From positions 1 to 37,251 of the IMG/VR virus record IMGVR_UViG_3300020051_001005: 37,251 bases of DNA. One strand, written 5' to 3'. The notes under the pieces were generated by a model. That model ran no database searches and had not been told where the DNA came from. It was given only the letters and a program-made list of their open reading frames with translations. Numbering within the stretch: the stretch's first letter is position 1; every line of letters begins with the position of its first letter. This DNA is from a virus. Both the position numbers and the translations under genes were made by a program. Below are positions 3,669 to 35,167 of this stretch, in pieces.

Positions 3669-3693
3669 TTGTATTAAATCGAAAAATAATTTT

Positions 3694-3701
3694 TATATTT
3701 G
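3694..3701 (+). promoter_or_regulatory. Host-type -7 promoter element TATATTTG
   Basis: Exact TAnnTTTG match 16 nt before the fourth LSE-repeat gene, with an ATTG at 3668-3671 as possible -33 box. It would give copy 4 its own transcription start. Confidence 0.45.
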
Positions 3702-3717
3702 TAAAAACTAAAAATAT

Positions 3718-4638: not shown

Positions 4639-5019
4639 TTAATTATCGAAATATTCGTAATAATTTGTAAGAATATCATCAAAACTATATTTACATAATT
4701 CAATAACTTTATTCATCGTGTCTTCTGATAATGTATGATATGATTCTTTAATTTCATACCACATATTATCCATTTCAACAATAGATAATAATATATCATT
4801 ATCTTCATTTGGTGTAATATCTAATGGTTTAGATAAAATCATTTCATATATGTTTTTTAATTCTATACTAGTTTCATATCCATCAGAGAAAGATGAAATC
4901 ATATTATGAATATGCATATCTAATATTTTAATAAATTCTTCTTTATTTTTAGGTAATAATAAATCATTATCGATATTTTCATTTAAAAATTCTTTAAATT
5001 CATTTATAGTTGTTATCAT
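4639..5019 (-). CDS. Leader-bearing hypothetical protein (putative capsid-targeted)
   Basis: A 126-residue protein beginning MITTINEFKEFLNENIDND. This is the most complete form of the leader shared by eleven proteins here, with an LNE tripeptide at residues 13-15 matching the T4 gp21 cleavage consensus (I/L)xE. The body is acidic and probably helical (KEEFIKILDMHIHNMISSF, ESYHTLSEDTMNKVIELC) and matches no family I know. The candidate late promoter motif lies 24 nt upstream. Probably a late protein packaged with the DNA; cargo function unknown. Confidence 0.7.
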   Translation of the reverse strand: MITTINEFKEFLNENIDNDLLLPKNKEEFIKILDMHIHNMISSFSDGYETSIELKNIYEMILSKPLDITPNEDNDILLSIVEMDNMWYEIKESYHTLSEDTMNKVIELCKYSFDDILTNYYEYFDN

Positions 5020-10136: not shown

Positions 10137-11003
10137 ATGAATAAAGAAGAAATAGTAAAATCATTAGAAAAGATTTATAGTGAATCAACAGATTCACATA
10201 ATATTTATACACCACTTGAATTGTGTGAAGAAATGATTAATTCATTAACTGATTTGAATGGTGATATTTTAGTTATATCTAATCTTGAATTTTTAATTGT
10301 TTTAAAACAAAAAGATGTTGATATGAATAATGTTCATTATTCAACTTCTTGTGATATTAAAAAACAAGTTGCAATTAGTTTAGGTGTTAATATAAACAAT
10401 ATTCATCTTTTAGAATATAACAATAAAGAAATCAATTTAGGAATAGAAGAAATGAAGTTTGATGTAATTGTTGCGAACCCACCATATCAAAAAGGTTTAC
10501 ATTTAAAATTTTTAGATAAATGTATTGATATGAAACATGATGATGGTGAAATTATATTTGTCCATCCTGCAGAATGGTTAGTACAAAAAAGACAAACGTC
10601 CAGAACTAAATTACATGATATATTAAAATCTAAAATAAATGGTGCAAATATAACATTTATAGATAATCCATGGAATAATGTTGCATTATGGGTTCCGCTT
10701 GTTATAACCAATATAAATAATTCTTGTATTTATAATTTTAATGAAAAACGAAAATTTGTAAATAAAGAATATTCATTAAAATTAAAATCATTATATGATA
10801 TATCATTTTTTGGTGTATTAACACATATGCAATCAGTATATAATAAAATATATAATAAAGCAAAAGAAATATCATTTAAAGATATTGAAAAACAAAATTT
10901 AAATTTAAACAAATATATAACTTTACATAGGTTTACTGGGTCTAATGTAGATTTAATAAATAAAACATCTTCTTTAGCTATGTTTAATAATATAGAAATA
11001 TAA
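10137..11003 (+). CDS. N6-adenine DNA methyltransferase, N-terminal fragment of a frameshifted gene
   Basis: A 288-residue ORF with an adenine methyltransferase core. It has a TPLELCEEMI segment, a degenerate SAM-binding stretch (GDILVISNLEFLIVL, 42-56) and catalytic motif IV FDVIVANPPYQKG with NPPY at 114-117. It would put a methyl group on adenine N6. The ORF stops at 11003, but homologous C-terminal sequence continues in another frame from 10996 to 11346, so one indel near 10980-10996 has split the gene. Either the methyltransferase is inactivated, the frameshift is programmed, or there is a base-calling error in this A-rich stretch. It starts 4 nt after the membrane-protein gene. Confidence 0.75.
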   Translation: MNKEEIVKSLEKIYSESTDSHNIYTPLELCEEMINSLTDLNGDILVISNLEFLIVLKQKDVDMNNVHYSTSCDIKKQVAISLGVNINNIHLLEYNNKEINLGIEEMKFDVIVANPPYQKGLHLKFLDKCIDMKHDDGEIIFVHPAEWLVQKRQTSRTKLHDILKSKINGANITFIDNPWNNVALWVPLVITNINNSCIYNFNEKRKFVNKEYSLKLKSLYDISFFGVLTHMQSVYNKIYNKAKEISFKDIEKQNLNLNKYITLHRFTGSNVDLINKTSSLAMFNNIEI

Positions 11004-11100
11004 AATTTATGATAGATTTTTATTACATAGAATAGATTCTAAACATTTTAATGTATTTAATGAACCACAATATGCAAGAACAGGGAATCAAAGATTATTT

Positions 11101-11346
11101 ATGTCTTTTAATACTGAAATAGAAGCTCAAAATTGCTTGAATTTTTTAGGAAAATCAAAAGTATTTGTAGCATATTTTTCATATATAAAAATTGACCAAC
11201 ATGCTGCAGATACGCTATTATCTTGGATTCCTTGGTTAGATTGGACACAAGAATGGACAGATGATAAATTAATTGAATTTTTTAATTTAACAGATGAAGA
11301 AGTTCAAAATATAGAAGAAATAATAAATATAATTACAATAAAATAA
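11101..11346 (+). CDS. N6-adenine DNA methyltransferase, C-terminal fragment
   Basis: An 81-residue ORF, but its frame is open from 10996, giving about 35 extra residues without a start (YDRFLLHRIDSKHF, EPQYARTGNQRLF). The sequence FNTEIEAQNCLNFLGKSK, then SWIPWLDWTQEWTDDKL, then FNLTDEEVQNIEEII is the characteristic C-terminus of phage Eco57I-like methyltransferases (FnT..EA.N...YL; iPwLD...WtD..L...F.Lt.eEi..Ie). It therefore belongs to the gene starting at 10137, in a different frame. The internal ATG at 11101 is only the first start codon in the leftover frame and is unlikely to make a working protein alone. Confidence 0.65.
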   Translation: MSFNTEIEAQNCLNFLGKSKVFVAYFSYIKIDQHAADTLLSWIPWLDWTQEWTDDKLIEFFNLTDEEVQNIEEIINIITIK

Positions 11347-11350
11347 AAAT

Positions 11351-11950
11351 ATGAATAACTACGAATATAAAATAATATTATCTAAAAATACAGATAATAC
11401 ATTAAATATTAAAAAACAAAACAATTTAAATAAAGATAATTTAATATTAATAAATTATCGATTTGAAAAAATGAATATAAAAGATATTGATAAAAATACA
11501 TATATTTATAAAAACAATGATGAAATTGTACAATATAATGATGACGATTTTAATAATTTAGAAATAACCAATAATTATCTATTTTGTTTAATAGATATAA
11601 ATAATAATATTTCAATATGTGATGAATCATTAAAGTTTTGGCATATAGGAAATTTAGATATAAATAATAAAATTAACGAATATTTAATTTATGATGATTT
11701 AGTTAAATCAAAATTTGGTTTATATACAAATAATACATTACCAAACAATTCTATTTTTTCAATTATTGAAAAAGAAAAACTATATTATTTACAAATAATT
11801 AAAACTAAATATAAAAATATTAAAAAAATTGGATTTATTATAATTAATAATAATGATATAATTAACAATAATGACATTTATGCTAATTATAATGGTATTA
11901 ATACCATTATAAACCCAGTAAATTCAACAATTGATGTTAAATGGATATAG
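11351..11950 (+). CDS. Hypothetical protein
   Basis: A 199-residue Asn/Ile/Lys-rich protein starting 4 nt after the methyltransferase fragment and overlapping the next ORF by 10 nt. It is probably a beta-rich soluble protein (KKIGFIIINNND, ANYNGINTIINPVNST). It has no signal peptide and no motif I recognise. Position suggests it is part of the helicase/methyltransferase transcription unit. Confidence 0.5.
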   Translation: MNNYEYKIILSKNTDNTLNIKKQNNLNKDNLILINYRFEKMNIKDIDKNTYIYKNNDEIVQYNDDDFNNLEITNNYLFCLIDINNNISICDESLKFWHIGNLDINNKINEYLIYDDLVKSKFGLYTNNTLPNNSIFSIIEKEKLYYLQIIKTKYKNIKKIGFIIINNNDIINNNDIYANYNGINTIINPVNSTIDVKWI

Positions 11951-12399
11951 TTAAGTATTTAAAGGAACAGATAAAGAATGAGTCAACTTATTCTAAGGAT
12001 AAATCTAATGCACATGGTGAGGTTTTTACGCCGCCATCATTAATTAAGGAAATGTTAGGATCTTTAGATGGAGATGCATTTACTGATCCTAATAAAACAT
12101 TTCTTGATCCATGTAGTGGGAAAGGTAATTTTCCTGTATTTATTATACAAGCATTGATGAAAGGATTAGAAACACATTTTCCTAAATCTAAACAACGATA
12201 TAGGCATATTATTGAGAATATGTTATATATGTGTGAATTTCAAAAAGAATCAGCAATATTTATTAATGATTTATTTGGTATGGATGGTGAATTTAAAGTA
12301 AATTTATATGTTGGTGATACATTAAAATTACCAGATGATTTCTTTGATTTATCATATGAAGATAGAAAAATTAAATATCCTGAAAATGTTATTGCATAA
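11941..12399 (+). CDS. Truncated N6-adenine methyltransferase (SAM-binding half)
   Basis: A 152-residue ORF with the start of a second type of adenine methyltransferase. HGEVFTPPSLIKEML (25-39) is the region X motif and FLDPCSGKGNFPVF (54-67) is motif I, which binds S-adenosylmethionine. Then comes QKESAIFINDLFG and a stop after RKIKYPENVIA, with no NPPY motif IV or target-recognition domain. A perfect palindromic terminator begins at its stop codon. It is a gene remnant or a partner for a separately encoded catalytic half. The methyltransferase starting at 10137 has NPPY but a poor motif I, so complementation is conceivable but speculative. Residues SYEDRKIKYP are also encoded in the remnant at 14431. 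Confidence 0.65.
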   Translation: MDIVKYLKEQIKNESTYSKDKSNAHGEVFTPPSLIKEMLGSLDGDAFTDPNKTFLDPCSGKGNFPVFIIQALMKGLETHFPKSKQRYRHIIENMLYMCEFQKESAIFINDLFGMDGEFKVNLYVGDTLKLPDDFFDLSYEDRKIKYPENVIA

Positions 12400-12429
12400 A
12401 AAAAGTCACAATTAATTGTGACTTTTTTT
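12398..12429. terminator. Bidirectional intrinsic terminator
   Basis: A 32-nt perfect palindrome: seven A, GTCACAATT/AATTGTGAC, seven T. It lies between the convergent genes ending at 12399 and 12443 and can serve both. Confidence 0.85.
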
Positions 12430-12832: not shown

Positions 12833-13369
12833 ATGATAACAACAATTAATGAATACAAATTAATTAATGAAAAATTTGTAAATTTATGGAATAAAGAAGA
12901 TATGAAGTTATATATTGATGAAGTATTTTCTTTAATGATTAAAGCATACGAATCTATTGGTGGTTTTTTAACAGCAAAATCGGCTGATGAATTATGTGAA
13001 AAAACTGATTTAATTAAAATAATAAAAAGAAATGGAAAGATTAGTGCTGTTTCTTGTTATAAAGTATCTTCTTTCGGAAGAAAATTAATATGTGGTGCGA
13101 CTAATGCTACAGAACAAGGTAAAAAAGATTTGTTATCTATTATAAAAGAAGATATAACTCAAATAAAAAGAAATTCTTATTCTGAAGTTAGTGGTAAATT
13201 AGAACACATATATTTAAAATATGGTGCGACTGTTGTACAAAATTATTTGGTATCTGATATAATAGGAAAAGATATAATTATTGATAAAACAGATGATTTT
13301 CATTATTATAGAGAAATTAAAGGACAATTACATAGAAAATTATTAGTAGGAAATATTAATAAGTCATAA
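12833..13369 (+). CDS. Leader-bearing GNAT-like acetyltransferase family protein
   Basis: A 178-residue protein starting MITTINEYKLINEKFVNLW; the INE at residues 11-13 fits the prohead-protease consensus. The rest resembles a phage family I associate with an N-acetyltransferase-like fold: MIKAYESIGGFLTAKSADEL, LIKIIKRNGKISAVSCYK, FGRKLICGATNATEQGK, and SYSEVSGKLEHIYLKYGA. In that family the central strands around GKIxAVxxYK form the acetyl-CoA binding half. Catalytic assignment is weak because the usual RxxGxG loop is not clear. Its last 11 codons (KLLVGNINKS and stop) are repeated 358 bp downstream as part of a 59-bp direct repeat. Confidence 0.6.
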   Translation: MITTINEYKLINEKFVNLWNKEDMKLYIDEVFSLMIKAYESIGGFLTAKSADELCEKTDLIKIIKRNGKISAVSCYKVSSFGRKLICGATNATEQGKKDLLSIIKEDITQIKRNSYSEVSGKLEHIYLKYGATVVQNYLVSDIIGKDIIIDKTDDFHYYREIKGQLHRKLLVGNINKS

Positions 13370-13476: not shown

Positions 13477-13695
13477 ATGATAACAACTATTAATGAATTT
13501 AAACAATTTATGAATGAAAATAAAATAACATTACAACAAGATAGCGCTGATAAAATAAAAATAACGTTAGATGAAAATATTATTTTAACACATGCAAAAA
13601 AAATGTTTAAAAAAATAAAAACAATGAAAGATGTTTATGGTTTAGGTTCTATTGATTATAATAAATTAATTAAACATTTATCAAAAATTAATTAA
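13477..13695 (+). CDS. Small leader-bearing protein (putative capsid-targeted)
   Basis: A 72-residue protein starting MITTINEFKQFMNENKITL, with MNE at residues 12-14 as probable cleavage site. The remaining 58 residues are basic (KMFKKIKTMKDVYG, NKLIKHLSKIN). T4 internal proteins are likewise small and basic after leader removal, so this is the closest analogue to a classical internal protein in the window. The gene, with its own late-type promoter, sits between two identical 59-bp repeats, as if inserted between its neighbours. Confidence 0.65.
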   Translation: MITTINEFKQFMNENKITLQQDSADKIKITLDENIILTHAKKMFKKIKTMKDVYGLGSIDYNKLIKHLSKIN

Positions 13696-15577: not shown

Positions 15578-15823
15578 TTAATGATTTTCTATTTTTTGTA
15601 ATTCTGTATAATAATTAGGCATTTCAGTTAAATGATCTAATGCAATTTCTTTAGCTAAATTTTTATCACTAGTGTGTTCTAATTCAACATTAATTCCTTT
15701 TTTAAGTTCATGTTGTATATTTGAAATAGTTGTATTGTGTTTACTGGCAATATCTTCTATAGATAAATTATCACCAATTCCACCTTTTAAATAATTTTTA
15801 AATTCGTTTATTGTTGTTATCAT
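15578..15823 (-). CDS. Leader-bearing DUF5661 protein
   Basis: An 81-residue protein starting MITTINEFKNYLKGGIGDN. The body carries the DUF5661 signature: KKGINVELEHTSDKNLAKEI followed by ALDHLTEMPNYYTEL (G..VE.EHT.D...A..IA.DHL.E.P.YY..L). The invariant E, H and YY are present. The family is small, widespread in phages, and of unknown function. Here it is joined to the putative capsid-targeting leader, although the (I/L)xE site is not obvious between residues 9 and 16. A late-type motif lies about 23 nt upstream. Confidence 0.75.
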   Translation of the reverse strand: MITTINEFKNYLKGGIGDNLSIEDIASKHNTTISNIQHELKKGINVELEHTSDKNLAKEIALDHLTEMPNYYTELQKIENH

Positions 15824-17735: not shown

Positions 17736-17769
17736 AAAAAAACATATGATTATAATCATATGTTTTTTT
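17736..17769. terminator. Bidirectional intrinsic terminator
   Basis: A 34-nt perfect palindrome (A-tract, ACATATGATTA/TAATCATATGT, T-tract) between convergent genes ending at 17731 and 17788. Confidence 0.85.
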
Positions 17770-17787: not shown

Positions 17788-18564
17788 TTAATCTTGTCTT
17801 AATACATAACCTTCTTCGGAACAAAAATCTACCATTTTATTTAGTCCTGTTGAACCATAAGGTCCACCTGGATTAAAATTATAGAAAGATACAGTATTTG
17901 GTTGAAAAATTACATTAATAGATTCTTTTTCGTAATATATATATGATTCTAATTTAGTTTCTTTAATATCGTTATATGAATTTTCTTGGAATAAAAATAG
18001 TGCCCATCCTGGTTGTTCATTTTCATTAGCCATAACATCAAATCCCATTCTAAAATATCCACGTTCGTGATTATTTAAATCTTTATTTTTAATTTCAGAT
18101 GATAATATATTAATAGAATTTTGTACATCATTATCATCAACCGTACTAAAATTTTCGTTATCTTCTTCAGGTGACCCAGAATCTCTATATATTTCACCAG
18201 GAATATATGCTAAAAAACACTCTTGACTATCATAACCTTTTTCTTCAATCCATCTACTGAATTGTTCGGCATTGTTGTAAATTTTATTTATAGAATCACC
18301 ACCAGATGTTAATCTATCCATCCCTAAAGATTTAATCCAATTAGGTATTAATTCTCTATGGAATTTTGTATATGTATTATTTAGATTACCAGGACCTACA
18401 TGCAATGATGTGAATATAGTACCACTTTCAACTAAAGAAACTAATATATCTAAATCTTTTAAATCTGTTAAATTATTTAACACACCTTTTAAAATTTCAT
18501 ATGTTGAATCATTTTCTATATTTTCTCTAATATATTTTTTAAACTCGTTAATATTTGTTATCAT
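17788..18564 (-). CDS. Leader-bearing hypothetical protein
   Basis: A 258-residue protein with the leader MITNINEFKKYIRENIEND and an IRE tripeptide at 12-14 as cleavage candidate. The mature part is a single globular domain: VSLVESGTIFTSLHVGPGNL, RELIPNWIKSLGMDRL, FSRWIEEKGYDSQECFLAYI, RGYFRMGFDVM, then a C-terminal NPGGPYGSTGLNKMVDFCSE. I do not recognise the family. Composition is balanced and less Asn-rich than its neighbours. Upstream is a perfect late-type motif 17 nt before the start. Likely another packaged effector; target unknown. Confidence 0.65.
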   Translation of the reverse strand: MITNINEFKKYIRENIENDSTYEILKGVLNNLTDLKDLDILVSLVESGTIFTSLHVGPGNLNNTYTKFHRELIPNWIKSLGMDRLTSGGDSINKIYNNAEQFSRWIEEKGYDSQECFLAYIPGEIYRDSGSPEEDNENFSTVDDNDVQNSINILSSEIKNKDLNNHERGYFRMGFDVMANENEQPGWALFLFQENSYNDIKETKLESYIYYEKESINVIFQPNTVSFYNFNPGGPYGSTGLNKMVDFCSEEGYVLRQD

Positions 18565-20130: not shown

Positions 20131-20844
20131 ATGTTAGAAAACCTTATAGGAATTGATCCATCTATTATATCTACAGGATTAGTAGTTAATGGTATAGTAT
20201 TTAATTATTGTCGTGAAAAAGATGCTAAAAATACAAAATTAACAAAATTATCTAAATGGTATTTATTATGTGAAAGCGTTATAAATTATAGATATATTAA
20301 ATTGGATTATGTTGAAGGATATTCAAAAAATGAAATTCAAAAAATGTTTTTATATGACGCTATCACGGATATGATGATTGATGATATTATAAAAACAATA
20401 GATAATACCTTACCTACTAGAGTAGCAATAGAAGGATATTCATATTCATCAGGCGCAGGTGATATTATTGATTTAGTAACATTTTCAACTTTATTACGTA
20501 GAAAATTATTAACTATTACTACAGATATTACTATTTTAGCACCTATGACTTTAAAATTGGAATCATGTAAATTAACATATACTCCAATAGAAAAGAAAAT
20601 AGGCGGAAAGAATCCACGTACAGAATATATTTATAAAAGTAAATTAGGCATTCCTGGTGGATCATTTAATAAATTAGATATATTCCTATCACTTATTGAA
20701 AATGATTCATTAAATGATACATATGTTAATTTTTTAAAAGAACATAAAATGTCAATAGCATTTACAAAAAATATTAAAAAACCATTAGAAGATACTAATG
20801 ATGCATACACATTATATTTATTATTAAAAAACAATAAAATATGA
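20131..20844 (+). CDS. RuvC-like Holliday-junction resolvase
   Basis: A 237-residue protein with the RNase H-type fold of RuvC. The first strand is LIGIDPSIISTGLVV with catalytic D9. The second acid is E101 in VAIEGYSYSS, the RuvC ..EG... motif. The acidic pair at the end is D221/D224 in LEDTNDAYTLYLLL. The order D, E, D..D is that of metal-dependent junction resolvases. Phages use such enzymes to resolve branched DNA before packaging. It is followed by an overlapping gene (ATGA), implying coupled translation. Confidence 0.75.
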   Translation: MLENLIGIDPSIISTGLVVNGIVFNYCREKDAKNTKLTKLSKWYLLCESVINYRYIKLDYVEGYSKNEIQKMFLYDAITDMMIDDIIKTIDNTLPTRVAIEGYSYSSGAGDIIDLVTFSTLLRRKLLTITTDITILAPMTLKLESCKLTYTPIEKKIGGKNPRTEYIYKSKLGIPGGSFNKLDIFLSLIENDSLNDTYVNFLKEHKMSIAFTKNIKKPLEDTNDAYTLYLLLKNNKI

Positions 20845-21278: not shown

Positions 21279-21310
21279 AAAAAAACCTAGAATTAATTCT
21301 AGGTTTTTTT
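21279..21310 (+). terminator. Intrinsic terminator
   Basis: Perfect palindrome: seven A, CCTAGAATT/AATTCTAGG, seven T. It separates the resolvase unit from the leader-gene operon, whose promoter overlaps the T-tract. Confidence 0.85.
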
Positions 21311-21320
21311 TATATATATT
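21308..21320 (+). promoter_or_regulatory. Candidate late promoter (weak variant)
   Basis: TTTTATATATATT, 11 of 13 matches to the motif, ending 2 nt before the first ATG of the four-gene leader operon. Confidence 0.3.
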
Positions 21321-21322
21321 AT

Positions 21323-21889
21323 ATGATAACTGAATTTAAAATATTTGAGAATAACAGAGCAGATTTATATCATGCAATAAAAACAAAATACGCTAATATA
21401 GCATTAGAAAAAAACGAATTAGATATTTATTCTTATCAACGATATTGGGCTAATGGAAAAAGATATAAAGATAATGAACCAGAATATAAAAATTCATTTT
21501 TTTATCGTGGTTTATCATTAACTAGAGATATAAATTATGCAAAAAATTGGGCTAGTGTTATTTTAGTTTTTGATACAAATAAATTAAAAGAAAAATATAA
21601 AATTGTTCCTTATAACTGGGGCTTTAGTATAGGTAATATAACTAATCAAAATATAAAAAAAGAAAAAGAAGAATTTTTAATTGTATCATATAATAAAAAT
21701 CATTTAACAGATAAAGAATTTATTAATATGTATGGTAAATCTGGTGGATCTATAAAAAATCTTTCTTATTATTTAAAAGGTTTTTATATAAATAAATCAA
21801 CATATAATATTTATACTGAAAATGATACAAAAATATATGAACCATATGAAAAATTAAAAAAAAATAAATTATATTTAGGACTACTATGA
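21323..21889 (+). CDS. Leader-bearing protein, possible ART-like fold
   Basis: A 188-residue protein with a short leader, MITEFKIFENN, where IFE at 7-9 matches the cleavage consensus. The body fits a phage family of the form LYHA...A..IL..N.L... followed by RGLSLTRDINYAKNWASVIL and VFDTNKLKEKYKIVP. It also has an acidic EKEEF around residues 111-115. LYH, S-L-T-R and ExE would correspond to the three ART active-site strands, but the match is weaker than in the gene at 23247. It is the first of four overlapping genes (ATGA junctions) that all carry the leader. Likely late-expressed and injected; enzymatic role not proven. Confidence 0.55.
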   Translation: MITEFKIFENNRADLYHAIKTKYANIALEKNELDIYSYQRYWANGKRYKDNEPEYKNSFFYRGLSLTRDINYAKNWASVILVFDTNKLKEKYKIVPYNWGFSIGNITNQNIKKEKEEFLIVSYNKNHLTDKEFINMYGKSGGSIKNLSYYLKGFYINKSTYNIYTENDTKIYEPYEKLKKNKLYLGLL

Positions 21890-23250
21890 TAACTGAATTT
21901 AAAAAATATTTACTAAATGAATCCACAAAATTTAAAGAAAGTGAATATGATTTAGTAATAGTGGATGTACAAGAAGGATTTAAGAAATTTTTTGGTGAAG
22001 AGTATTTATTAGCATTAGAAGAATATTGTGAAAATTTTACAAGAGTTTTTCAAATATTTGATACTAATAATACAAATCACAGTGATTATATATTTCCAAA
22101 TCAAACATTAGAAATAGAAAAAACGTATGGTGGTCAATTAGATGAAGAAGATATAGATTATTTATTTACTGAACCTATGCGAGATTATGTTAGATCTAAA
22201 ATGAATAATTTACAAGAACGTGACATTTTCGAAACAATAAATGGAGATTATTATGTATATGTTGATGCCGCACATGAATGGTTTTTTTGTACAAAAGAAA
22301 TGGCAGATTTATTTAAAAAATTTAAATCTGAAAATAGAAAAATTATGTTAGTTGGTGGTGCTGGTGGATCTAAAAAAAATCCTAAAGGTGAATGTTTACG
22401 AGATATTTATGTTACATTAAAAGCATTTGGAGTTGATACAAGATATAATTTAGATTATGTTTATTCAGCAGATGGAAATATGTTTAAATCAAATATTAAA
22501 GGCGTTCCGTTAACAGACGAACAACGAAATAAAGTAAAATCTACTAATGAAAATTACAATAATGATGATATAATTAATTTAAAAACTTTTGATTTTACTA
22601 CTTTATTTAATACTATAAATAAAGAGTGTTTTAATTCTTCTTTATCTATAATTCCTATCAAATTTTCTACTTCTAAATCATACACTGCACAATTTGTTAG
22701 ACCACGTTATCCTAAATATGATGGAACTGATAAAGAATATTTTGTTTTTTCTACTTTATTTGAAATGACATATAAAAAATTAAAAAATGTGTTAGCGCAT
22801 GAAATGATACATTATTATTTGTATGCTATTATGGATAGAGATAAATCACATCATGGATATTCTTTTCAAAATAAAATGAATTCTATTAATAATTTAAATT
22901 TAGGATATATCATAACATTAAAAGATGATGAACCAAGTAATGTATCAGAAGAAAATTTAAATAAAAAGTTACAAAAAAAGAAATTTATAACATATAAAAT
23001 AAAAGGACAAAACGGATATTCTTTAATAAACGAAATTACATTTATTAAAGATAAAGCTAATTTTTTAAGTAAAAGAACAATGTATGGTGTTACAGATATA
23101 AAAGTGTATGATACATCATCAGCACATTATAAAGTATTATCTGGATCTACAACAAAAATAAAATTATCAATAATAAAACCACAATATCAATATTTAATAG
23201 ACAATATTATTAATGATACAAAAAATACAAAATTTTTATATAATTTATGA
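21886..23250 (+). CDS. Leader-bearing isochorismatase-like / SprT-like metalloprotease fusion
   Basis: A 454-residue three-part protein. Residues 1-14 are the leader (MITEFKKYLLNEST; LNE at 10-12). Residues 21-200 look like an isochorismatase/nicotinamidase-type cysteine hydrolase: LVIVDVQEGF with D27 and Q29, RKIMLVGGAGG, and GECLRDIYVTLKAFGVD with C170 at the usual nucleophile position. Residues 235-340 match the SprT zinc-metalloprotease pattern: NVLAHEMIHYYLYAIM with HEMIH at 305-309, then HHGYSFQNKMNSIN with a third ligand near H323. SprT proteases act on DNA-bound proteins. The final 110 residues are unassigned. The fusion is unusual and may deliver two activities in one injected protein. 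Confidence 0.65.
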   Translation: MITEFKKYLLNESTKFKESEYDLVIVDVQEGFKKFFGEEYLLALEEYCENFTRVFQIFDTNNTNHSDYIFPNQTLEIEKTYGGQLDEEDIDYLFTEPMRDYVRSKMNNLQERDIFETINGDYYVYVDAAHEWFFCTKEMADLFKKFKSENRKIMLVGGAGGSKKNPKGECLRDIYVTLKAFGVDTRYNLDYVYSADGNMFKSNIKGVPLTDEQRNKVKSTNENYNNDDIINLKTFDFTTLFNTINKECFNSSLSIIPIKFSTSKSYTAQFVRPRYPKYDGTDKEYFVFSTLFEMTYKKLKNVLAHEMIHYYLYAIMDRDKSHHGYSFQNKMNSINNLNLGYIITLKDDEPSNVSEENLNKKLQKKKFITYKIKGQNGYSLINEITFIKDKANFLSKRTMYGVTDIKVYDTSSAHYKVLSGSTTKIKLSIIKPQYQYLIDNIINDTKNTKFLYNL

Positions 23251-23831
23251 TAACGACGATAAATGAATTTAAATTAAATATATCAGAATCCGTTCAAAAA
23301 TATGATTTAGATGCTATATTAAATATAGCATTAACATATAAAGATGATGAGTATTATTTTTATAAATATGCTGATGAAACTAATGATGATATAGATAATA
23401 TAGATGACGAAAGTGATGAATATATATCATGGTACAAAGAAGAAATTGAATATATAATAGAAAATATATATTTTTTAATGAAAAGTAATTATTCTTCACC
23501 TGGTTTAGTATATAGAAAAATAACTGTTAATGAAAATTGGTTTAATAATTTAAAATCTGGTGATAATTTAGGAATATATTGGACATATGATGAAAACTCA
23601 GCAGAATCACATTGGTCAAAAGAAGATATTGAAGTTTTATTAATAGCTGAAATTGATTCATCAAATATAGATTATAAAAATACATATTTAGCACATATAA
23701 TACCTTATACTGGCGAAGACGAAAAAGAAATAAGATTATTAAAAAATACAGAAATTAATATTAAATCTATAATTATAAAAGATGAAGAACAAGATTTATC
23801 TAAATTTGAAAATACAATATTTAAAGCTTAA
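23247..23831 (+). CDS. Leader-bearing ADP-ribosyltransferase-like protein
   Basis: A 194-residue protein with leader MITTINEFKLNISESVQKY (ISE at 12-14). The C-terminal 110 residues show an R-S-E type ART pattern. SPGLVYRKITV carries R90. GIYWTYDENSAESHW fills the second strand. GEDEKEIRLLKNTEINIKSI carries the ExE catalytic pair E159 and E161. ExE ARTs usually modify arginine or similar side chains. T4 Alt and ModA are phage ARTs of this sort, and Alt is packaged and injected. Start and stop overlap neighbours (ATGA upstream; TAATG downstream), so it is one cistron of the four-gene operon. Confidence 0.65.
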   Translation: MITTINEFKLNISESVQKYDLDAILNIALTYKDDEYYFYKYADETNDDIDNIDDESDEYISWYKEEIEYIIENIYFLMKSNYSSPGLVYRKITVNENWFNNLKSGDNLGIYWTYDENSAESHWSKEDIEVLLIAEIDSSNIDYKNTYLAHIIPYTGEDEKEIRLLKNTEINIKSIIIKDEEQDLSKFENTIFKA

Positions 23832-24472
23832 TGATAACAACGATAAATGAATTTATGATTAATGAAACATATTCTAAATTAGAATTTGAAAATATACATT
23901 TAGATTATCATAATCAACAAAACTGTTATAAAATGAATGCTAAATTAAATGGTGAAATTGTAGCATATTGTGATTATACAGAGTATAATGGTATTTATCA
24001 AATAAGTATGATAGAATCATTAGTTAAAGGCCAAGGATATGGTAAAGCTATAATGATGGAATTAGCTAGATTATATGGATATAAGAATATAGAACGAAAT
24101 AATTTAACTCCTGATGGTCAAAAATTACGTAATAAAGTTGATAATGAATTAGGTTTTGATTACACCGAGTATAAAAAATCATTAAATAAACATTTATCTA
24201 ATGAAGAATCAATAGATAAAATAAGAATTAAATATCCTTTATGTGCTGATTTTATGTCTGAAATTATATTATTTGATTATAGTGACACATGGTTAAAATG
24301 GAAAAATAATAATAAAATAAAAAATATAGAACAAGAATTACAAAATACAGATATAGATATAAATGATTTATCAGATATAACAGAATGGATAAAAAATTCA
24401 GCGACAAATAATAATTCTACTACAGAATCTGTTCCAGATTATATTTTAGAATATATTCAAAAATTATCATAA
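23831..24472 (+). CDS. Leader-bearing GNAT acetyltransferase
   Basis: A 213-residue protein with leader MITTINEFMINETYSKLE (INE at 10-12). Residues 20-115 are a GNAT domain: KMNAKLNGEIVAYCDYTEYN, ISMIESLVKGQGYGKAIMME with the acetyl-CoA loop KGQGYGK at 66-72, then LARLYGYKNIERNNLT and KVDNELGFDY. It would transfer an acetyl group from acetyl-CoA to an amine; T4-like phages have similar proteins, substrate unknown. The C-terminal 95 residues (KYPLCADFMSEIILF, NDLSDITEWIKNSATNNN) are not recognised. It is the last gene of the operon, with its start overlapping the previous stop. Confidence 0.75.
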   Translation: MITTINEFMINETYSKLEFENIHLDYHNQQNCYKMNAKLNGEIVAYCDYTEYNGIYQISMIESLVKGQGYGKAIMMELARLYGYKNIERNNLTPDGQKLRNKVDNELGFDYTEYKKSLNKHLSNEESIDKIRIKYPLCADFMSEIILFDYSDTWLKWKNNNKIKNIEQELQNTDIDINDLSDITEWIKNSATNNNSTTESVPDYILEYIQKLS

Positions 24473-24485
24473 TTTTTTTAAACTT

Positions 24486-24498
24486 TTTAATATATAAT
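24486..24498 (+). promoter_or_regulatory. Candidate late promoter TTTAATATATAAT
   Basis: Perfect copy, 19 nt before the ATG of the repeat-bearing virion-type gene. It sits directly after a TTTAAACTTT sequence seen before three other genes. Confidence 0.5.
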
Positions 24499-24517: not shown

Positions 24518-25564
24518 ATGGAATATATTAATGTATATAATTTTTTAAATTATTTTAAAAGACCTGGTGATAAGAGATTAGCTAGAATAGGACATGTTAA
24601 TGAAGTTATTGAAAAAATTAATGAAGGTGGTTCTGGTGGTGGTTCTGCTGGTGTAATAGAAAATACGTATGAGGAATTAACTATATTAAAATCAAATAAT
24701 GAATTAATTCCTGGAGCATTATATAAAATAACAGACTTCCAAACAATTTATGACCAACCAGATTATACAAGTGGTGGTTCTTTAAAAGGTACATTAGTAA
24801 CTAAAACAGCTAGTATTGATCCTATAATTTTATTTGCAATATCTAATAACGAATTTCATATCACAGCATATAGACCAAGTACACCAAATCATAAAATAGA
24901 ATTTGATTTTGATTTTAATCAAACTGAAATAATGTCAGCTCCAGCTAAAGGTAGAATTAGTTCTTTAATAGACGAATTTGATAATCATACTAATTATGAT
25001 CATTCAGTAGTTCTTTTAAAAAGATATGAAACAGTAAGTGGTTCTGGAATTTATAATTCATATAAAGACACTGGTTTTGGTTCAGTTGAAGTAAATACAT
25101 TTGGAACAAATTGTAATAACAATACAATGTATTATAAAGTTACTTCTGGTATTTTAATTTCAAATAATACATTTGGAGATAATTGTTTTGGAAATTCATT
25201 TAGAAATAATTGTCGAAATAATTCATTTAGAAATTATAGTGTTATTAATATATTTGGATATAATTGTTTTGGAAATTCATTTGGAAATTATTGTAATACT
25301 AATTCATTTGGAAATGATTGTCAATATAATTCATTTGGTGAAGATTGTTATAATAATACATTTGGAAATGGTTGTAGTAGTAATACAATTGTAGATAGTT
25401 GTCGATTTAATGATTTTAAAAAATCACAAAGTTTGAATTATACAACGGCAACTCATATTTACACTGATTATACTTGTACTATTTCGGTAAGACTGGATGG
25501 AACATATATATTACAGTATATTAACAATAGTGATGTTCAAGTGATAGTAGCAGCGAATGCATAA
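24518..25564 (+). CDS. Probable tail/baseplate appendage protein with beta-helix repeats
   Basis: A 348-residue protein. The N-terminal part has a flexible NEGGSGGGSAG linker and then ELIPGALYKITDFQTIYDQP, a motif seen in fibre and tail proteins of Bacteroidota phages. Residues 217-300 hold nine tandem 9-residue units of the form N-(S/T)-F-G-N-x-C-x-x, with Phe and Cys ladders that suggest a parallel beta-helix. The C-terminus (YTTATHIYTDYTCTISVRLD) may be a trimerising cap. Likely a spike or fibre structural protein, so expressed late, as the upstream motif suggests. Confidence 0.7.
   Translation: MEYINVYNFLNYFKRPGDKRLARIGHVNEVIEKINEGGSGGGSAGVIENTYEELTILKSNNELIPGALYKITDFQTIYDQPDYTSGGSLKGTLVTKTASIDPIILFAISNNEFHITAYRPSTPNHKIEFDFDFNQTEIMSAPAKGRISSLIDEFDNHTNYDHSVVLLKRYETVSGSGIYNSYKDTGFGSVEVNTFGTNCNNNTMYYKVTSGILISNNTFGDNCFGNSFRNNCRNNSFRNYSVINIFGYNCFGNSFGNYCNTNSFGNDCQYNSFGEDCYNNTFGNGCSSNTIVDSCRFNDFKKSQSLNYTTATHIYTDYTCTISVRLDGTYILQYINNSDVQVIVAANA
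25166..25417 (+). repeat. 27-bp coding repeats (9-residue N-S-F-G-N-x-C units)
   Basis: Nine in-frame units of 27 bp plus a partial tenth within the appendage gene, recurring as AATTCATTTGGAAAT and close variants. They encode a likely beta-helix. Confidence 0.85.
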
Positions 25565-25749: not shown

Positions 25750-26748
25750 ATGGCAGATGTATTTAATTTAGACGAATCAGCAGAAGTAAGCTCATGGTCA
25801 GAATCAAAAAAAGTAAACAATGATGGTCTTTTAAGACCGAAATTAGAAGAAGGAAAAGATGGTAAACGTGAATTAACTATTCGATTTTTACCAAATATGA
25901 TTTCAGAAAATCAATTAGGTCCAACAGCAATTGAAAAACATATTCACTATGCAAATTTCAAAAATAATCCAGAATTACAAGGATATTATGACTGTTTAAA
26001 AAACACAAATATTGGAAAAGATTGCCCATTATGTAAAACATTTTGGTTATTGAAAAATTCTAATAATCCAGCAGAACAAGAAAAAGCAAAATTAATAAGT
26101 AGAAATACAAAATACTATTCATATGTATTAGTAGTAGATGATGAACAAGTTCCAGAAAACGAAGGAAAAATCTTTATTTTCCCATTTGGATTTAAAATCT
26201 ACGAAAAAATTAAAGCAAAATTAGAAGCTAAAAAACGTCCATTTAAAGTAGAAGATTTAATTAATGGTGCTGACTTTAATTTAGTTATTAAAGAAGTAGC
26301 AGGTTTTTATAATTATGATTCTTCTGAATTTGATACACCAGAACCAATTACTATTAATGGTAAAATGTTAAAAGTAAATGATGATGGAACTATTGATAAA
26401 TCAGAAAGAAAACGAGTAATTGAATTCTTATTATCAAGAGAACACACATTAGAAGAATTCTTACCTCAAGATTGGACGCCAGAACAATATGATAAAGTGG
26501 AAAAAATTATTTCTGTATTATCAGGACAAGCATATACTGGACAATCTAGTAATAACAACACAACAACACCATTAAGTACATCATCTGTATTTTCTGATGA
26601 TGATGATGATGATGATGAAGTGGTAGTAACGAAAACTAGAAAAACTAAAGTTGTAGAAGCAGTAGAAACAGAAGAAGAAGAAGCACCACAAGCTTTGAAA
26701 GCATCTAAGAAAAGAGCTGCACAATTTTTTGATGACGATGAAGATTAA
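25750..26748 (+). CDS. T4 gp32-like single-stranded DNA-binding protein
   Basis: A 332-residue ssDNA-binding protein. Landmarks are a basic/aromatic core (RPKLEEGKDGKRELTIRFLP), the zinc site IEKHIHYANF ... YYDCLKNTNIGKDCPLC with C82-x9-C92-x2-C95, and H64 or H66 as fourth ligand. The Cys spacing equals that of T4 gp32 (C77-x9-C87-x2-C90). The C-terminus is acidic (SDDDDDDDE; FFDDDED), as needed to contact replication partners. It coats ssDNA in replication and recombination. AAAGGA 7 nt before the ATG is one of the rare SD-like sites here, fitting high expression. It has its own promoter region and terminator. Confidence 0.9.
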   Translation: MADVFNLDESAEVSSWSESKKVNNDGLLRPKLEEGKDGKRELTIRFLPNMISENQLGPTAIEKHIHYANFKNNPELQGYYDCLKNTNIGKDCPLCKTFWLLKNSNNPAEQEKAKLISRNTKYYSYVLVVDDEQVPENEGKIFIFPFGFKIYEKIKAKLEAKKRPFKVEDLINGADFNLVIKEVAGFYNYDSSEFDTPEPITINGKMLKVNDDGTIDKSERKRVIEFLLSREHTLEEFLPQDWTPEQYDKVEKIISVLSGQAYTGQSSNNNTTTPLSTSSVFSDDDDDDDEVVVTKTRKTKVVEAVETEEEEAPQALKASKKRAAQFFDDDED

Positions 26749-29673: not shown

Positions 29674-32600
29674 CTAAATATAAAAATCATCATTATAATC
29701 GTCATTATAATCACCTAAATTAATAATATAATTATTGATGTTATTATCATTAGAGTTTGGAATTATATACGATTTAGTCATTTTTTTTGTATTCGAATAT
29801 CCAGAATGCCAAAATACTTCTACTATAAAATATGGGTCTATATTTTGATTTATTGAAAATGATACAGGATCAAGATCGTTTTTAGAAGATCTTAAAATTT
29901 GTGTATTTTGTAATTTATCTAATGTTGTTATTTCCCATATATTATTAATACCAGGTTCATCTGTTGGTGAAGATGTAACATTATTAATCCAAATATTATT
30001 GTTATGAAATAATATAGTTTCTGGTAAATATGTAATATTATTCCATTTAGATAAATTAAATGTTTTAATTACATAATCGAACCAAATATCTTCTGAATTA
30101 GTATTAGTACTAATAAATTGTACAGATATATTATATAAATTAGAACCTTGTGATATTGGCTGAAGATAACCTGTTACATGAAATGATATAGCATCACTGT
30201 ATTCTTCGGTTCTAAAATTTTTAGTCATATATGATTCGTGTTCTAATATAAAATTATTTTGTATTTTATATTTACCATTAATATCTAATATTTTTGTGCC
30301 TATAGGTATAATATTTTCAGTTAACCAACGTTTTAATCCTAATAATTTAACTTTAACTTCTTCTAATGAATAAGCATTTATAAAATTTCCATTATCATCA
30401 GTAATTTTATAATTTAATGAAAATAAATTAGTTTTTCTAAATCCTTGATTTCTATAATTTTCATATGCTAAATTAGAATATAAATATTCAGTAGAGTCTT
30501 TTGTTAGTAAATTTAATAATTCTAAATTAAATAATTTTCCAAATTTACTATTTTCTGGATCTATATTTTGAAAATATTCTGTAAACGTCAAATCATTATA
30601 TCCAAAAAAGTTAATTGCATATATTACACTTTTATAACTAGCTAAATAATTAAATATTTCTGGGTATATTTCTATTAATTCTTTACGTTTTCTATTCATT
30701 AATACCCAATCAATACCATTTTCATTTATATCTACTTCTTTAAAAATAAAATAATCTTGTAATTTTAAAATATTTAAATTTTTATTGTTAATATTTATTT
30801 CATGTCTAATATCAACTCCTTCAGTTTCACCATATAAATCAAAATATGCTATTTGTTTTGGTAAAACTGATATATTTACGTTTAATAATCTATTTACATA
30901 TAATAAATTACCATTAATATCATAAAATGGTAAAGTATTTTTAACTACAGATTTAACACTTGTCTCTTCTATAACATTTTCTTCAAATACTAATTTATTT
31001 AAATATATTTCTTTTATTGTATAATCTATACCATTATTACTTAATTTTCCTAATAATTGTCCATCTGAACTTGTATCATTAGATGAAAATTGTATAATTT
31101 GTCCTGTTTTAAATCCTAAAGAAATAAAATCTATAGTATTTGTAGAAAATTGTATTTCTACATAATTATCTTTAAAAATAAATAAATCATCATACGAAGA
31201 TCCAACACTTGTTGTAGTTAAAGAAAAAACAACATCTTCTATTTTTTCTAAATATAATCTAGCATTAGTCCATCCTTCATTTAATGTATTATAACCTATA
31301 AATATTTGCATAGGATCTGGTTCTAATTGATTATTTGTTATATTAGAATTAATATAAGGTATGTCAAAAGTTATCGTATCAAATATTGTTTGTTGTTTAT
31401 ATGGATTAGATATTTCATTAATATCAGTATTAGGTTTATAATTTAATGTAATATCATATTCACCGTTTTCACCACATAATGGTGTTATACCATTATAATT
31501 TGGAAAATATTCAGTATAAGGTTGTAATTGTGTACCACTAAAATCATATAAAAACATATCATTAATTTGTGTATCTTTCCAAGTCCACTTATATTTAGTT
31601 TGAACATTAATTCCATCTAAACCAGATTTAGGATAACGTATAAAAAAATCAGATTCAATATCTAAATCTAATAAAGAAATATTCCAAAATGGACCTTGAT
31701 ATGATAATGAAATAATATTTTCTGTTAAACCAATAATATTAAACGATTTATTTTGTGAAATATATGTTGAACCATTAATACTAATTTTTTGTCCAACTGA
31801 ATAATAATCTAAAAAATTATATAATCCAGGTGCACAAATAATTTCATTTCCAGAAATTACACTACCACTATAATTTATAGCGTGTAATGTTTCTAAAATA
31901 GATAAATCACCGGATTTTGGTATATAACCAATATTATAAAATATATCTAATTGTCTTTCAGGATCTAATATATTAATAAAAATAATCGTATTAGATACAG
32001 AAATAATGATACCTAACAACTTTAATTCTTCATACCATGTATTATACCAATCTAAAATAGTTTGTGCGTCAGATGTGTTATATGGAACAATATAATCTAC
32101 TTCATTAATATTTATTAATAATTGTGATTTAATATTTGTAATATTTATATCTAAATATTTAATATCATAAATAGTTCCATCACCAAATAACATATTTAAA
32201 TAAACAGGTATATTAGGATATGTATTTGTTAAAGTTAATACATTTAAAGTTGAACTTATATTAATTCCTAAATTAAATAATTCTGTTTGATATGTAGAAA
32301 CAAAATCATTTATTGTTGTATCAATGTCTGTATTAAATGGTACATAATAATTTTTAGAATTAATATTAATTTTAATTCCAAAATTATCTATATTATAAAA
32401 TTCAATAATACGTGTATATAAATTAGAATCTTTTTTTAATAATTCTAATTCTTTTAATGGTTCTTGTACATATAAAGGTGTTACATCATAAATTGTTGTA
32501 TTTATTGATGTTGTATAATCCGTAATTACATTATTTATATTTATTATAGATAATGATATTGTACTATAATTATCTGTAAATATTGAAATTAAGTCTAATG

Positions 32601-33756
32601 AATTATCTTCTTTGTTATATTCTAAATTATATCCACCAGCTAATTCTGCTAATTCTTCACCATAATTATTCATTATAGAAAAATATGTTAATGGTAATGA
32701 TAATAAATTATTATTATCATATAAAATATTTGATTCTATAGAAAATATATTAGATGCTAAATATAAATAACAATCAACTAATTGTGTTGATACGGTATTA
32801 CCTATATCAAATGTTAAAGTATTTGTAGAACGATCTATATTAGTAATTATAAATTGTTGTTGGTTTAATAAATTTAAAGATGTACTTTTTTCTTTAAATA
32901 TTACACTATCACCTATTTTAATAAAATATGGAACATAAGGTATAGATACAGTATTAGTACTATTATCAAAATTAGATTCACCATCACTAATTAAAATATT
33001 AGATGTTTTTAATTGTATATTTATTTTGATTTTATCACCATCTGATGGAGTATAAAATAAGTCTGGAATGTTATAAGAATATCTATTTTTAGTATTTGTT
33101 TTTTTAGATATAGTATAAATACCATCATTATCAGTATTTGATATTAAAGATATTTTTTTATTTTCATAAATATTTGTTAATGAATCATTCCATATCGGTT
33201 CATTATATTGTTGAACTTCAATAACATCTACTGGTATAATTTTAGCATTAGTTATATTAAAATTTGGTAATGCTGTAAAATTATTAGTACTTGTATAAAC
33301 TAATATTTTATCTTTTTTAACATCTAATATTTTAAATAATTGGTAATTAGTATTTATAGTGTCGAAATCAGTATTATGATATGAATCTAATCCAGTAAAA
33401 TAACACCACATTCCTGTATAAAAATATTTATGAATATTTTCTGATGATACCCATTTAGTATTATAATTAGAATCTATGATAGTACTTTCTATATTAGTTA
33501 TAATAAACTCTATAGCATCATATTTAGGAAAAAAATTAAATCCATTAGTATTAAATACTTGAAATTTATTCAATGATGTATTAAATGTATTTTGTGTTCC
33601 TTCTATTTTTTCAAATGTATAAATTCCTTGTGTTTTAAATGTATCTGTTGAATTTTTATCAAAAAATAATGATGTATAATACATTTTATTATTCTCATCA
33701 TAATTCATATTTAATTGATGTCCTTCTTTATTAAAGAATATTAAGTTTTCTTCCAT
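29674..33756 (-). CDS. Large virion structural protein (baseplate/tail, 1360 aa)
   Basis: A 1360-residue protein, the largest gene here. The N-terminus (NLIFFNKEGHQLNMNYDENN ... YYTSLFFDKNSTDTFKTQGI) resembles large structural proteins of Bacteroidota phages, which also start with an FF.K.G..L...YD pattern. The body is a chain of beta-rich domains. Two adjacent segments at about residues 460-525 and 545-610 look duplicated (I.IN...Y.VPFNT....TI.D......EL..LGI.IS). No catalytic domain is recognised. The fibre gene follows immediately, so a baseplate-tail-fibre connector is plausible. It lies on the strand opposite to most genes and has a late-type motif 2 nt upstream. Confidence 0.75.
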   Translation of the reverse strand: MEENLIFFNKEGHQLNMNYDENNKMYYTSLFFDKNSTDTFKTQGIYTFEKIEGTQNTFNTSLNKFQVFNTNGFNFFPKYDAIEFIITNIESTIIDSNYNTKWVSSENIHKYFYTGMWCYFTGLDSYHNTDFDTINTNYQLFKILDVKKDKILVYTSTNNFTALPNFNITNAKIIPVDVIEVQQYNEPIWNDSLTNIYENKKISLISNTDNDGIYTISKKTNTKNRYSYNIPDLFYTPSDGDKIKINIQLKTSNILISDGESNFDNSTNTVSIPYVPYFIKIGDSVIFKEKSTSLNLLNQQQFIITNIDRSTNTLTFDIGNTVSTQLVDCYLYLASNIFSIESNILYDNNNLLSLPLTYFSIMNNYGEELAELAGGYNLEYNKEDNSLDLISIFTDNYSTISLSIININNVITDYTTSINTTIYDVTPLYVQEPLKELELLKKDSNLYTRIIEFYNIDNFGIKININSKNYYVPFNTDIDTTINDFVSTYQTELFNLGINISSTLNVLTLTNTYPNIPVYLNMLFGDGTIYDIKYLDINITNIKSQLLININEVDYIVPYNTSDAQTILDWYNTWYEELKLLGIIISVSNTIIFINILDPERQLDIFYNIGYIPKSGDLSILETLHAINYSGSVISGNEIICAPGLYNFLDYYSVGQKISINGSTYISQNKSFNIIGLTENIISLSYQGPFWNISLLDLDIESDFFIRYPKSGLDGINVQTKYKWTWKDTQINDMFLYDFSGTQLQPYTEYFPNYNGITPLCGENGEYDITLNYKPNTDINEISNPYKQQTIFDTITFDIPYINSNITNNQLEPDPMQIFIGYNTLNEGWTNARLYLEKIEDVVFSLTTTSVGSSYDDLFIFKDNYVEIQFSTNTIDFISLGFKTGQIIQFSSNDTSSDGQLLGKLSNNGIDYTIKEIYLNKLVFEENVIEETSVKSVVKNTLPFYDINGNLLYVNRLLNVNISVLPKQIAYFDLYGETEGVDIRHEININNKNLNILKLQDYFIFKEVDINENGIDWVLMNRKRKELIEIYPEIFNYLASYKSVIYAINFFGYNDLTFTEYFQNIDPENSKFGKLFNLELLNLLTKDSTEYLYSNLAYENYRNQGFRKTNLFSLNYKITDDNGNFINAYSLEEVKVKLLGLKRWLTENIIPIGTKILDINGKYKIQNNFILEHESYMTKNFRTEEYSDAISFHVTGYLQPISQGSNLYNISVQFISTNTNSEDIWFDYVIKTFNLSKWNNITYLPETILFHNNNIWINNVTSSPTDEPGINNIWEITTLDKLQNTQILRSSKNDLDPVSFSINQNIDPYFIVEVFWHSGYSNTKKMTKSYIIPNSNDNNINNYIINLGDYNDDYNDDFYI

Positions 33757-34377: not shown

Positions 34378-35165
34378 AAAGTATAAAAGAAAAACTAAAA
34401 GTATATAATGATAAAGATTTTAAATTTGATCCTGAAAAACATGTATACACTTATAATGGTAATGTAATGAGAGGAACAACCGGATTTTTACATAATTTTG
34501 TAAAACCATTTGATTCCGATTATTGGTCAAAGAAAAAAGCAGAACAGGCTGGAATAACACAAGAAGAAATGTTAGCACAATGGGATGCAAAACGTGATAG
34601 ATCATGTGACTTAGGACATATGGTACACGATTATATAGAACATTTTTATGAAAATAATTCAACTAAATTAACAGAAGATGAAGAAGCTAATTTAAGAATT
34701 GCTAAATTTCATACTATTTATGAAAATAAATTAAAAAACTTAATTTCAGTAGGATCAGAAATTAAAGTTTTCTCAAAAAAATGGAATTTAGCTGGAACAA
34801 TAGATAAGATATATTTATATGAGAATTCTATTATATTAGGTGATTGGAAAACTAATAAAGAAATCAAAACAGATAAATCATTTTGTTTCGGTAAATTATT
34901 AACACCATTTAATAATTACAAAGATAATGAATTAAATAAATATTCTTTACAATTATCTATTTATGCCTTATTATTAGAAGAAGCTGGAATATATGTAGAT
35001 TATTGTTTTATTTGTCATATACCAGAAAAAGGTGATTCTGAAATTTATAAATTAAAAGATTTTAGAGCTGAACTTAGAGCATACTTTACACATCAATTTT
35101 TAATGACTGAAGTTGTGGATATAAATAAAGAAAAAGAATTAGTAAAAATGGAGGTAATATGGTAA
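34359..35165 (+). CDS. PD-(D/E)XK nuclease, RecB/Cas4-like
   Basis: A 268-residue protein with the PDDEXK_1-type core: DLGHMVHDYIEHF (H87, H90, E94), SEIKVFSKKWNLAGTIDKIY (E134, D149), ILGDWKTNKEI (D162 and K164, the DxK signature) and YSLQLSIYALLLEE (Q198, motif IV). This is the RecB-like exonuclease set, seen in phage recombination nucleases and Cas4. Likely processes DNA ends for recombination or degrades host DNA. It overlaps the upstream ATPase gene by 19 nt, and the ATG of the next gene lies at or just past its stop, so they form one unit. Confidence 0.8.
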   Translation: MEQHTVESIKEKLKVYNDKDFKFDPEKHVYTYNGNVMRGTTGFLHNFVKPFDSDYWSKKKAEQAGITQEEMLAQWDAKRDRSCDLGHMVHDYIEHFYENNSTKLTEDEEANLRIAKFHTIYENKLKNLISVGSEIKVFSKKWNLAGTIDKIYLYENSIILGDWKTNKEIKTDKSFCFGKLLTPFNNYKDNELNKYSLQLSIYALLLEEAGIYVDYCFICHIPEKGDSEIYKLKDFRAELRAYFTHQFLMTEVVDINKEKELVKMEVIW

Positions 35166-35167
35166 AT

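Follow-up and report, generated by a model that had tools for sequence, protein, structure and literature searches.

A repeated N-terminal leader peptide in giant phages and a cassette of four genes whose mostly enzyme-like products are predicted to be loaded into the phage head

We analysed a 37.3-kb fragment of a phage genome with 21% GC (IMG/VR record IMGVR_UViG_3300020051_001005, positions 1–37,251; hereafter the window), which carries a cassette of four overlapping genes whose products open with the same type of short leader peptide. As judged from sequence, this cassette is likely to be a late unit for four cargo proteins that would be loaded into the phage head via a capsid-targeting leader, cleaved and injected. 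It consists of four open reading frames (ORFs) on the + strand (21323–21889, 21886–23250, 23247–23831 and 23831–24472), encoding proteins of 188, 454, 194 and 213 amino acids (aa), respectively. Consecutive genes overlap by ATGA (21886–21889 and 23247–23250) or by TAATG, that is by 1 nt, at 23831. In gene order the N-termini read MITEFKIFENN, MITEFKKYLLNES, MITTINEFKLNISES and MITTINEFMINET, all of which begin with MITEFK or MITTINEF, and each protein has one [I/L]-x-E site at residues 9–14 (IFE9, LNE12, ISE14 and INE12, respectively). The leader MITEFKIFE (next residue N) precedes a body that is homologous to gp109 of the cultured halophage SCTP-2 and to marine phage proteins and is a candidate ADP-ribosyltransferase (ART)-like protein. 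In the second protein, leader MITEFKKYLLNE (next residue S) is followed by an isochorismatase-like domain (residues ~20–205) and a SprT-like zinc metallopeptidase domain (240–344, HExxH). Leader MITTINEFKLNISE (next residue S) opens a predicted R-S-ExE ART-like body, and leader MITTINEFMINE (next residue T) a GNAT-like domain (residues ~14–110) with a conserved C-terminal extension. An earlier annotation of this DNA (the original prediction) had described four overlapping, leader-bearing ORFs; their coordinates, strand, overlaps and leaders were all reproduced here.

The leader, which can be written as MITxINEF(K)xxxNE, opens no fewer than nine window ORFs, distributed over both strands. As five of these lie outside the operon, it is a genome-wide feature and not particular to the cassette. 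The five genes encode the leaders MITTINEFKEFLNE (next residue N; 4639–5019, − strand), MITTINEYKLINE (next residue K; 12833–13369, + strand), MITTINEFKQFMNE (next residue N; 13477–13695, + strand), MITTINEFKNYLKG, attached to a DUF5661 body (15578–15823, − strand), and MITNINEFKKYIRE (next residue N; 17788–18564, − strand). One regular expression for the leader matches 5 of the 47 window ORFs, as compared to 0.2 in shuffled sequences. Across leader genes the codons show mostly synonymous variation, about as much as genome codon use predicts, with an invariant ATA at codon 2 as the exception. Thus, the leader is kept as a peptide and not as DNA, and the possibility that it is a DNA element or the trace of a recent duplication was ruled out because most codons vary synonymously. 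A twin contig (IMGVR_UViG_3300018410_000011, 55.8 kb) carries the same cassette with 100% protein identity, and about 16 of its 77 genes encode the leader; it does not count as independent evidence. Two proteins of the window with longer leaders (6836–7600 and 35159–35941) have ENKLNEGLI in common at residues ~18–29, perhaps reflecting a second leader type cut after KLNE.

Related leaders occur in other giant phages, each in a wording of its own. The gp32-like single-strand DNA-binding protein (SSB) of the window is closest to the SSBs of the uncultured phages LR756501–LR756504 and LR745206 (635–735 kb); the largest genomes in a survey of huge phages from 2020 were predicted to infect Bacteroidetes (PMC7162821). 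The leader dialect of the window is also used by three related contigs (G002, G003 and G004). LR756501 uses an MIKKFxLFE-type leader, LR756504 MKYLKLFE, a 430-kb contig MENIxxFxxFINE and SCTP-2 MKIxxLLxE. For the latter two, 400 kb of the 430-kb contig and 400 of the 440 kb of SCTP-2 were read. With expected counts taken from composition-preserving shuffles, a relaxed form of the T4 targeting rule described below matched 70 times in LR756501 (735 kb; 5.8 expected), 36 times in LR756504 (5.1 expected) and 19 times in the 430-kb phage (2.5 expected), and SCTP-2 has its own dialect in 18 copies (3.5 expected). When 59 or 72 leader proteins were aligned, their strongest common feature was the leader, with the consensus start MITxIxxFxxxINE or MxxxYxxFxxE. 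A search of an open-access library, which covered few subscription papers or preprints, turned up no account of a short leader that recurs within huge phages.

The leader resembles the capsid-targeting sequence (CTS) of phage T4 in its order of features, namely aromatic-xx-aromatic and then hydrophobic-x-E. For head targeting of the T4 protein IPIII its ten N-terminal residues are sufficient, with positions 4 and 7 acting in targeting and positions 8 and 10 in processing, and the protease gp21 cleaves after L/I-x-E (PMC9026906). A strict regular expression of the four T4 CTS positions picks exactly ipII and ipIII in T4 (2 vs. 0.03 expected) and 10 genes in LR756501 (0.15 expected), and the exact T4 spacing also occurs in two further records (L142 and L147). 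In the window, a form with relaxed spacing was found four times (0.36 expected). A conserved (I/M/V)(N/H)E followed by N is found at about residue 35–60 in capsid proteins from five relatives (HE in one of them); a T4-like propeptide could end there. A S77 (gp21-type) protease is present in LR756501, LR756502, LR756504, LR745206, G002, SCTP-2 and five more records. In huge phages (L016–L019 and L021) it lies in open frames of 650–820 aa as compared to ~210 aa in SCTP-2, perhaps as a protease-scaffold fusion. Among the LR756501 proteins matching the leader expression there was one Portal_T4 match, which was not traced to its gene and was not used as a control.

A k-mer test revealed that ATATATA is strongly enriched upstream of leader genes. 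This promoter-like element, TTAATATATA, is common to leader, capsid, portal and head-tail genes. In a band 8–45 nt upstream of the start codon, it was found for 42 of 48 leader genes but 115 of 568 other genes in LR756504 (p 4e-21), 37 of 55 vs. 150 of 579 in LR756501, 20 of 21 vs. 48 of 346 in the 430-kb phage and 11 of 12 vs. 6 of 40 in the twin contig, while the contrast is weaker in G002 (3 of 4 vs. 34 of 104) and G004 (5 of 7 vs. 20 of 86). It is found upstream of all five capsid genes (5/5), and the non-leader genes that possess it include those for the portal, the major head protein, the head-tail adaptor and the endolysin, whereas DNA polymerases, DNA methyltransferases and a translation factor are among those that lack it; homing endonucleases and helicases occur in both groups. 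All eight TTAATATATAA sites of the window lie 15–40 nt upstream of an ORF on the same strand, namely five leader genes and three further genes, of which two are virion-like. This band comprises 1.6% of strand positions for the 47 ORFs, so that 8 of 8 has a probability of ~5e-15 under independence. Upstream of the five leader genes outside the cassette, in the order given above, the element is located at a distance of 36 (TTAATATATAA), 16, 40, 35 and 29 nt. Because the element is common to leader and capsid, portal and head-tail genes, the leader genes are probably expressed late. Early transcription, which would have spoken against the original prediction, is not what this predicted element, as indirect evidence, suggests, as it groups the leader genes with head genes. 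The element is not present in T4 and SCTP-2, and the T4 late promoter TATAAATA is not enriched upstream of leader genes. A count of sigma-70 consensus promoters in the region (73 vs. 76 expected by shuffling) was uninformative.

When a homologous body occurs in another phage, its leader is in the dialect of that phage. The 188-aa body has the leader MKIKDLMEA in SCTP-2, where an upstream leader gene overlaps by ATGA, and MRLHQITEG in marine contigs, where it lies directly before gp32. For the 194-aa body 32 loci were found in IMG/VR. At least a dozen of these relatives are standalone proteins with leader-like starts in various dialects, e.g. MINYKNFINE or MLKYSEFLNE, each followed by A, and others are embedded in proteins of 474–1283 aa, e.g. 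together with GNAT/ParB or poly(A) polymerase/Acb1. One such 1036-aa phage protein (L157:352–3459) combines poly(A) polymerase, an Acb1-like anti-CBASS domain and an ART domain of the 194-aa type. The isochorismatase-like half of the 454-aa protein is homologous to standalone leader proteins of ~200 aa in LR756501, LR745206 and LR756502. In G002, a fusion of isochorismatase-like and GNAT-like domains (398 aa) occupies the slot of the window cassette between a RuvC-like gene and the gp32 gene, and the SprT (45% identical) and ART (42%) genes are located elsewhere, each with its own leader (SprT at 7 kb, ART at 12.7 kb and isochorismatase/GNAT at 83 kb of the contig). The G002 copy of the isochorismatase-like domain is further diverged. 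Thus, by sequence comparison the domains recombine: isochorismatase-like is joined to SprT in the window and to GNAT in G002. The original prediction had also derived a fixed stoichiometry of the products from the tight coupling of the genes. This was rejected, since overlaps are ordinary in these phages, 4-nt overlaps preceding 11 of 70 leader genes vs. 83 of 700 others in LR756501, and the genes are unlinked in G002.

Assignment of the SprT domain is solid by profile and motif: PF10263 matches above the cut-off (E 7.5e-11), HEMIH and HHG are conserved and a Spartan chain was hit with E 1.3e-4. In the isochorismatase-like domain Asp27 and Cys170 are invariant, but the Lys is not conserved and the Asp-Lys-Cys triad is incomplete; the best match in PDB profile searches was a nicotinamidase with a weak E-value of 0.025. 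Because the conserved Lys is absent, isochorismatase-like activity appears doubtful. For the 194-aa protein there is a good case that it is R-S-ExE ART-like. In its family R90, GIYW-[ST]-x-D and E159-x-E161 are conserved in 16 of 16 aligned sequences, and its AF2 model has a pLDDT of 82.6, residues 1–12 being of low confidence as expected of a detachable leader. The top six PDB matches of this model are ART/PARP folds at non-significant E-values (0.1–0.9), and a viral model was matched with E 2e-5. The 213-aa protein is likely a GNAT as judged from a sub-threshold PF00583 match (E 0.002; 18.9 bits vs. a cut-off of 20.7), a motif-A-like KGQGYGKA and the 44%-identical domain in G002 that is fused there to the isochorismatase-like protein. 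PDB profile searches with the 213-aa and 194-aa families yielded nothing informative, and the 188-aa and 194-aa families showed no relation when their profiles were compared. Of the enzyme calls in the original prediction, the SprT domain, its fusion to an isochorismatase-like domain and the R-S-ExE ART-like protein at 23247 are supported and the GNAT call is weaker, while for the 188-aa protein, which had been called a possible ART, the AF2 model from a three-sequence alignment reached a pLDDT of 43, at which the fold search, which gave no significant match, is meaningless.

The cassette is preceded by a putative bidirectional intrinsic terminator, the perfect palindrome AAAAAAACCTAGAATTAATTCTAGGTTTTTTT (21279–21310; 14 bp, with A- and T-runs), which would end the upstream transcript. 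This agrees with the strong terminator proposed originally, and terminator-like sites are more frequent in the region than in shuffled sequences (5 vs. 0.4). Perfect palindromic hairpins with A- and T-runs at 12398–12429 and 17736–17769 indicate that this terminator type recurs. Downstream, a predicted late-type element TTAATATATAA of the following gene (24487–24497, + strand) forms the border of the cassette. This gene (24518–25564, + strand) encodes a 348-aa protein, which the original prediction had called virion-type; its FGxNC-type repeats make it virion-like by sequence, and Pfam and PHROG searches gave no match. The anchors of the syntenic slot, both leaderless and on the + strand, are a RuvC-like gene without promoter element on the left (20131–20844) and the gene of the gp32-like SSB on the right (25750–26748). 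Elsewhere in the window, a gene for a 1360-aa protein (29674–33756, − strand) has as its counterpart in the otherwise near-identical twin contig a different-looking 341-aa ORF (L002:15788–16813), i.e. this tail-fibre-like position is strain-variable. Two tandem pairs with similar N-termini at 555–2705 (MNYLKIIYY../MEKLKIIYY..) and 2715–4398 (MRTLEQIIE../MLTLEDIIE..) are likely diverged paralogues, and two ORFs with similar adenine-methylase-like N-termini (YTPLELCEEMI and FTPPSLIKEML; 10137–12399), separated by unrelated ORFs, possibly represent a broken or duplicated Eco57I-type methylase.

Leader, enrichment, peptide conservation, CTS fit, promoter element, protease of the relatives, dialect swapping and domain shuffling are sequence-based; packaging, cleavage, injection and targets are predictions. 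According to the mechanism we propose, the cassette would be transcribed late as one unit and the four cargo proteins would be made. The leader of 9–14 residues would bind the scaffold core of the prohead, and at maturation the gp21-type (S77) prohead protease would cut after [I/L]-x-E and thereby release the enzyme within the head. At infection the enzymes would be delivered along with the DNA and would be active ahead of all phage gene expression, by ADP-ribosylation and acetylation of host proteins, by SprT proteolysis of host proteins and possibly by nicotinamide/NAD chemistry. The outcome would be host takeover and a blunted first-line defence. ART, GNAT and SprT genes of jumbo phages have been proposed to be takeover factors (PMC7824862).

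Similar arrangements are known. The T4 internal proteins IPI–IPIII also have a short N-terminal leader on unrelated proteins, with two aromatics three residues apart and then hydrophobic-x-E, and a gp21-type S77 protease is likewise present in relatives of the window phage. T4 IPI inhibits a restriction system, IPIII is required to infect a resistant strain and Alt is a packaged ART (PMC5512222, PMC9391042); a role against first-response defence is established for IPI and likely for IPIII (PMC9391042, PMC9026906). For the ART-like protein studied here head packaging and injection are predicted, which would make it similar to Alt and to further phage ARTs packaged in virions; ~44% of phage ARTs lie in contexts suggestive of packaging (PMC9503650). 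Unlike Alt, to which it has no detectable similarity, the 194-aa protein measures ~190 aa and has a GIYW[ST] motif; by tblastn its family was present in IMG/VR contigs and not found in the annotated phage collection. In contrast to IPI–IPIII, the leader is longer and has a genome-specific wording (MITxINEFKxxINE), there are tens of leader genes per giant-phage genome instead of three, the bodies are often enzyme-like, and the genes form overlapping cassettes with a different promoter element. The propeptides of phiKZ and SPN3US are longer than the leader described here. The inner-body and ejection proteins of these giant phages are comparable as many head-packaged proteins with protease-removed propeptides, whereas the respective texts describe no short repeated leader of the window type (PMC9026906, PMC10052503). 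Polyvalent proteins (Iyer et al. 2017, PMC5512222) have the domain palette of ART, GNAT, zincin peptidase and NTase and the tie to DNA delivery, which is predicted here, in common with the cassette, whereas in the window most domains stand alone as small proteins that each have a predicted head-loading leader; rather than large multidomain proteins the cassette has a single fusion, of two domains and 454 aa, and the multidomain form occurs in relatives (L156 and L157).

Several observations weigh against head loading of the leader proteins. The strict 10-residue T4 spacing is found in 0 of 47 window genes, as the site falls a few residues later and only the relaxed form fits. The leader gene at 15578–15823 has no xE site, and an early [I/L]-x-E occurs in only 5 of 12 MIT-leader genes of G002. 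The expected false-positive share of the leader expressions is ~8–14%, and the 55.8-kb twin contig, a fragment, carries neither the protease nor the capsid gene. Moreover, the cassette's own element, TTTTATATATATTAT (21306–21322, + strand; ~13 nt from the first start codon), is the variant TTATATATATTAT and overlaps the T-run of the terminator. Since ATATATA is also common in a genome with 21% GC, the call as late is weaker for the cassette than for the leader class.

Instead of a capsid-targeting propeptide that is cleaved off, the leader might be a peptide that docks or directs the proteins to a different phage structure, such as the outer virion, a replication compartment or a membrane. Docking elsewhere is conceivable for a short amphipathic peptide with aromatic residues, and some leaders lack a clear cleavage site, but the T4 targeting and processing positions fit, the xNE motif matches capsid-protein propeptides, S77 proteases are encoded in the same genomes and the late-type promoter is common to head genes, which makes this explanation unlikely. 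The fact that the bodies of the leader proteins are unrelated, that homologous bodies take on the dialect of the resident phage and that the leader peptide is kept while its codons vary synonymously, together with the grouping of the promoter element with capsid genes, argues against the view that the four are ordinary cytoplasmic takeover enzymes made after infection, with a common N-terminus that is left over from gene duplication or acts as an element of translation start. We consider this very unlikely, even though the T4 ARTs ModA and ModB are made after infection and, unlike Alt, are not injected from the head (PMC5512222), and ATGA coupling is common in these genomes. It is also quite improbable that the cassette has a role in structure or assembly, its products being core-associated proteins kept in the head whose enzyme folds are relics, so that the cargo would be packaged without being catalytic in the host. 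The isochorismatase-like domain, with Asp and Cys and no conserved Lys and with its more diverged copy in G002, would be compatible with such a role, but distant relatives retain the SprT HExxH and the ART R/ST/ExE residues, and the domains are swapped between genomes, unlike structural proteins. Head loading, i.e. the co-packaging originally suggested, appears to be the best reading of the leader in light of its T4 CTS geometry, the xNE of capsid propeptides, the protease of the relatives and the promoter element common with capsid genes.

Taken together, the novelty lies in the leader itself, read as a predicted mark of packaging at the sequence level, and in its dialects, the density at which it occurs and its link to a late-type promoter element. 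We lean towards the view that the largest phages have a general head-loading address system, in which the dialect of each lineage is matched to its scaffold and protease and sits on tens of late genes, and exchangeable enzyme bodies become injected effectors by acquiring the local leader. The idea of internal proteins, which in T4 concerns three proteins, would then extend to an estimated 3–7% of giant-phage genes (about one fifth of the window ORFs). Megaphages are mostly known from metagenomes only, and function is unassigned for most of their genes. Should the leader prove to be a tag for capsid targeting, dozens of their unassigned proteins could be called as injected effectors from sequence alone, which would provide ranked candidates for counter-defence and host-takeover enzymes as well as a test of cargo-scaffold co-evolution. 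Thus, leader and late-promoter element could together represent a readout of the injected proteome of uncultured megaphages.

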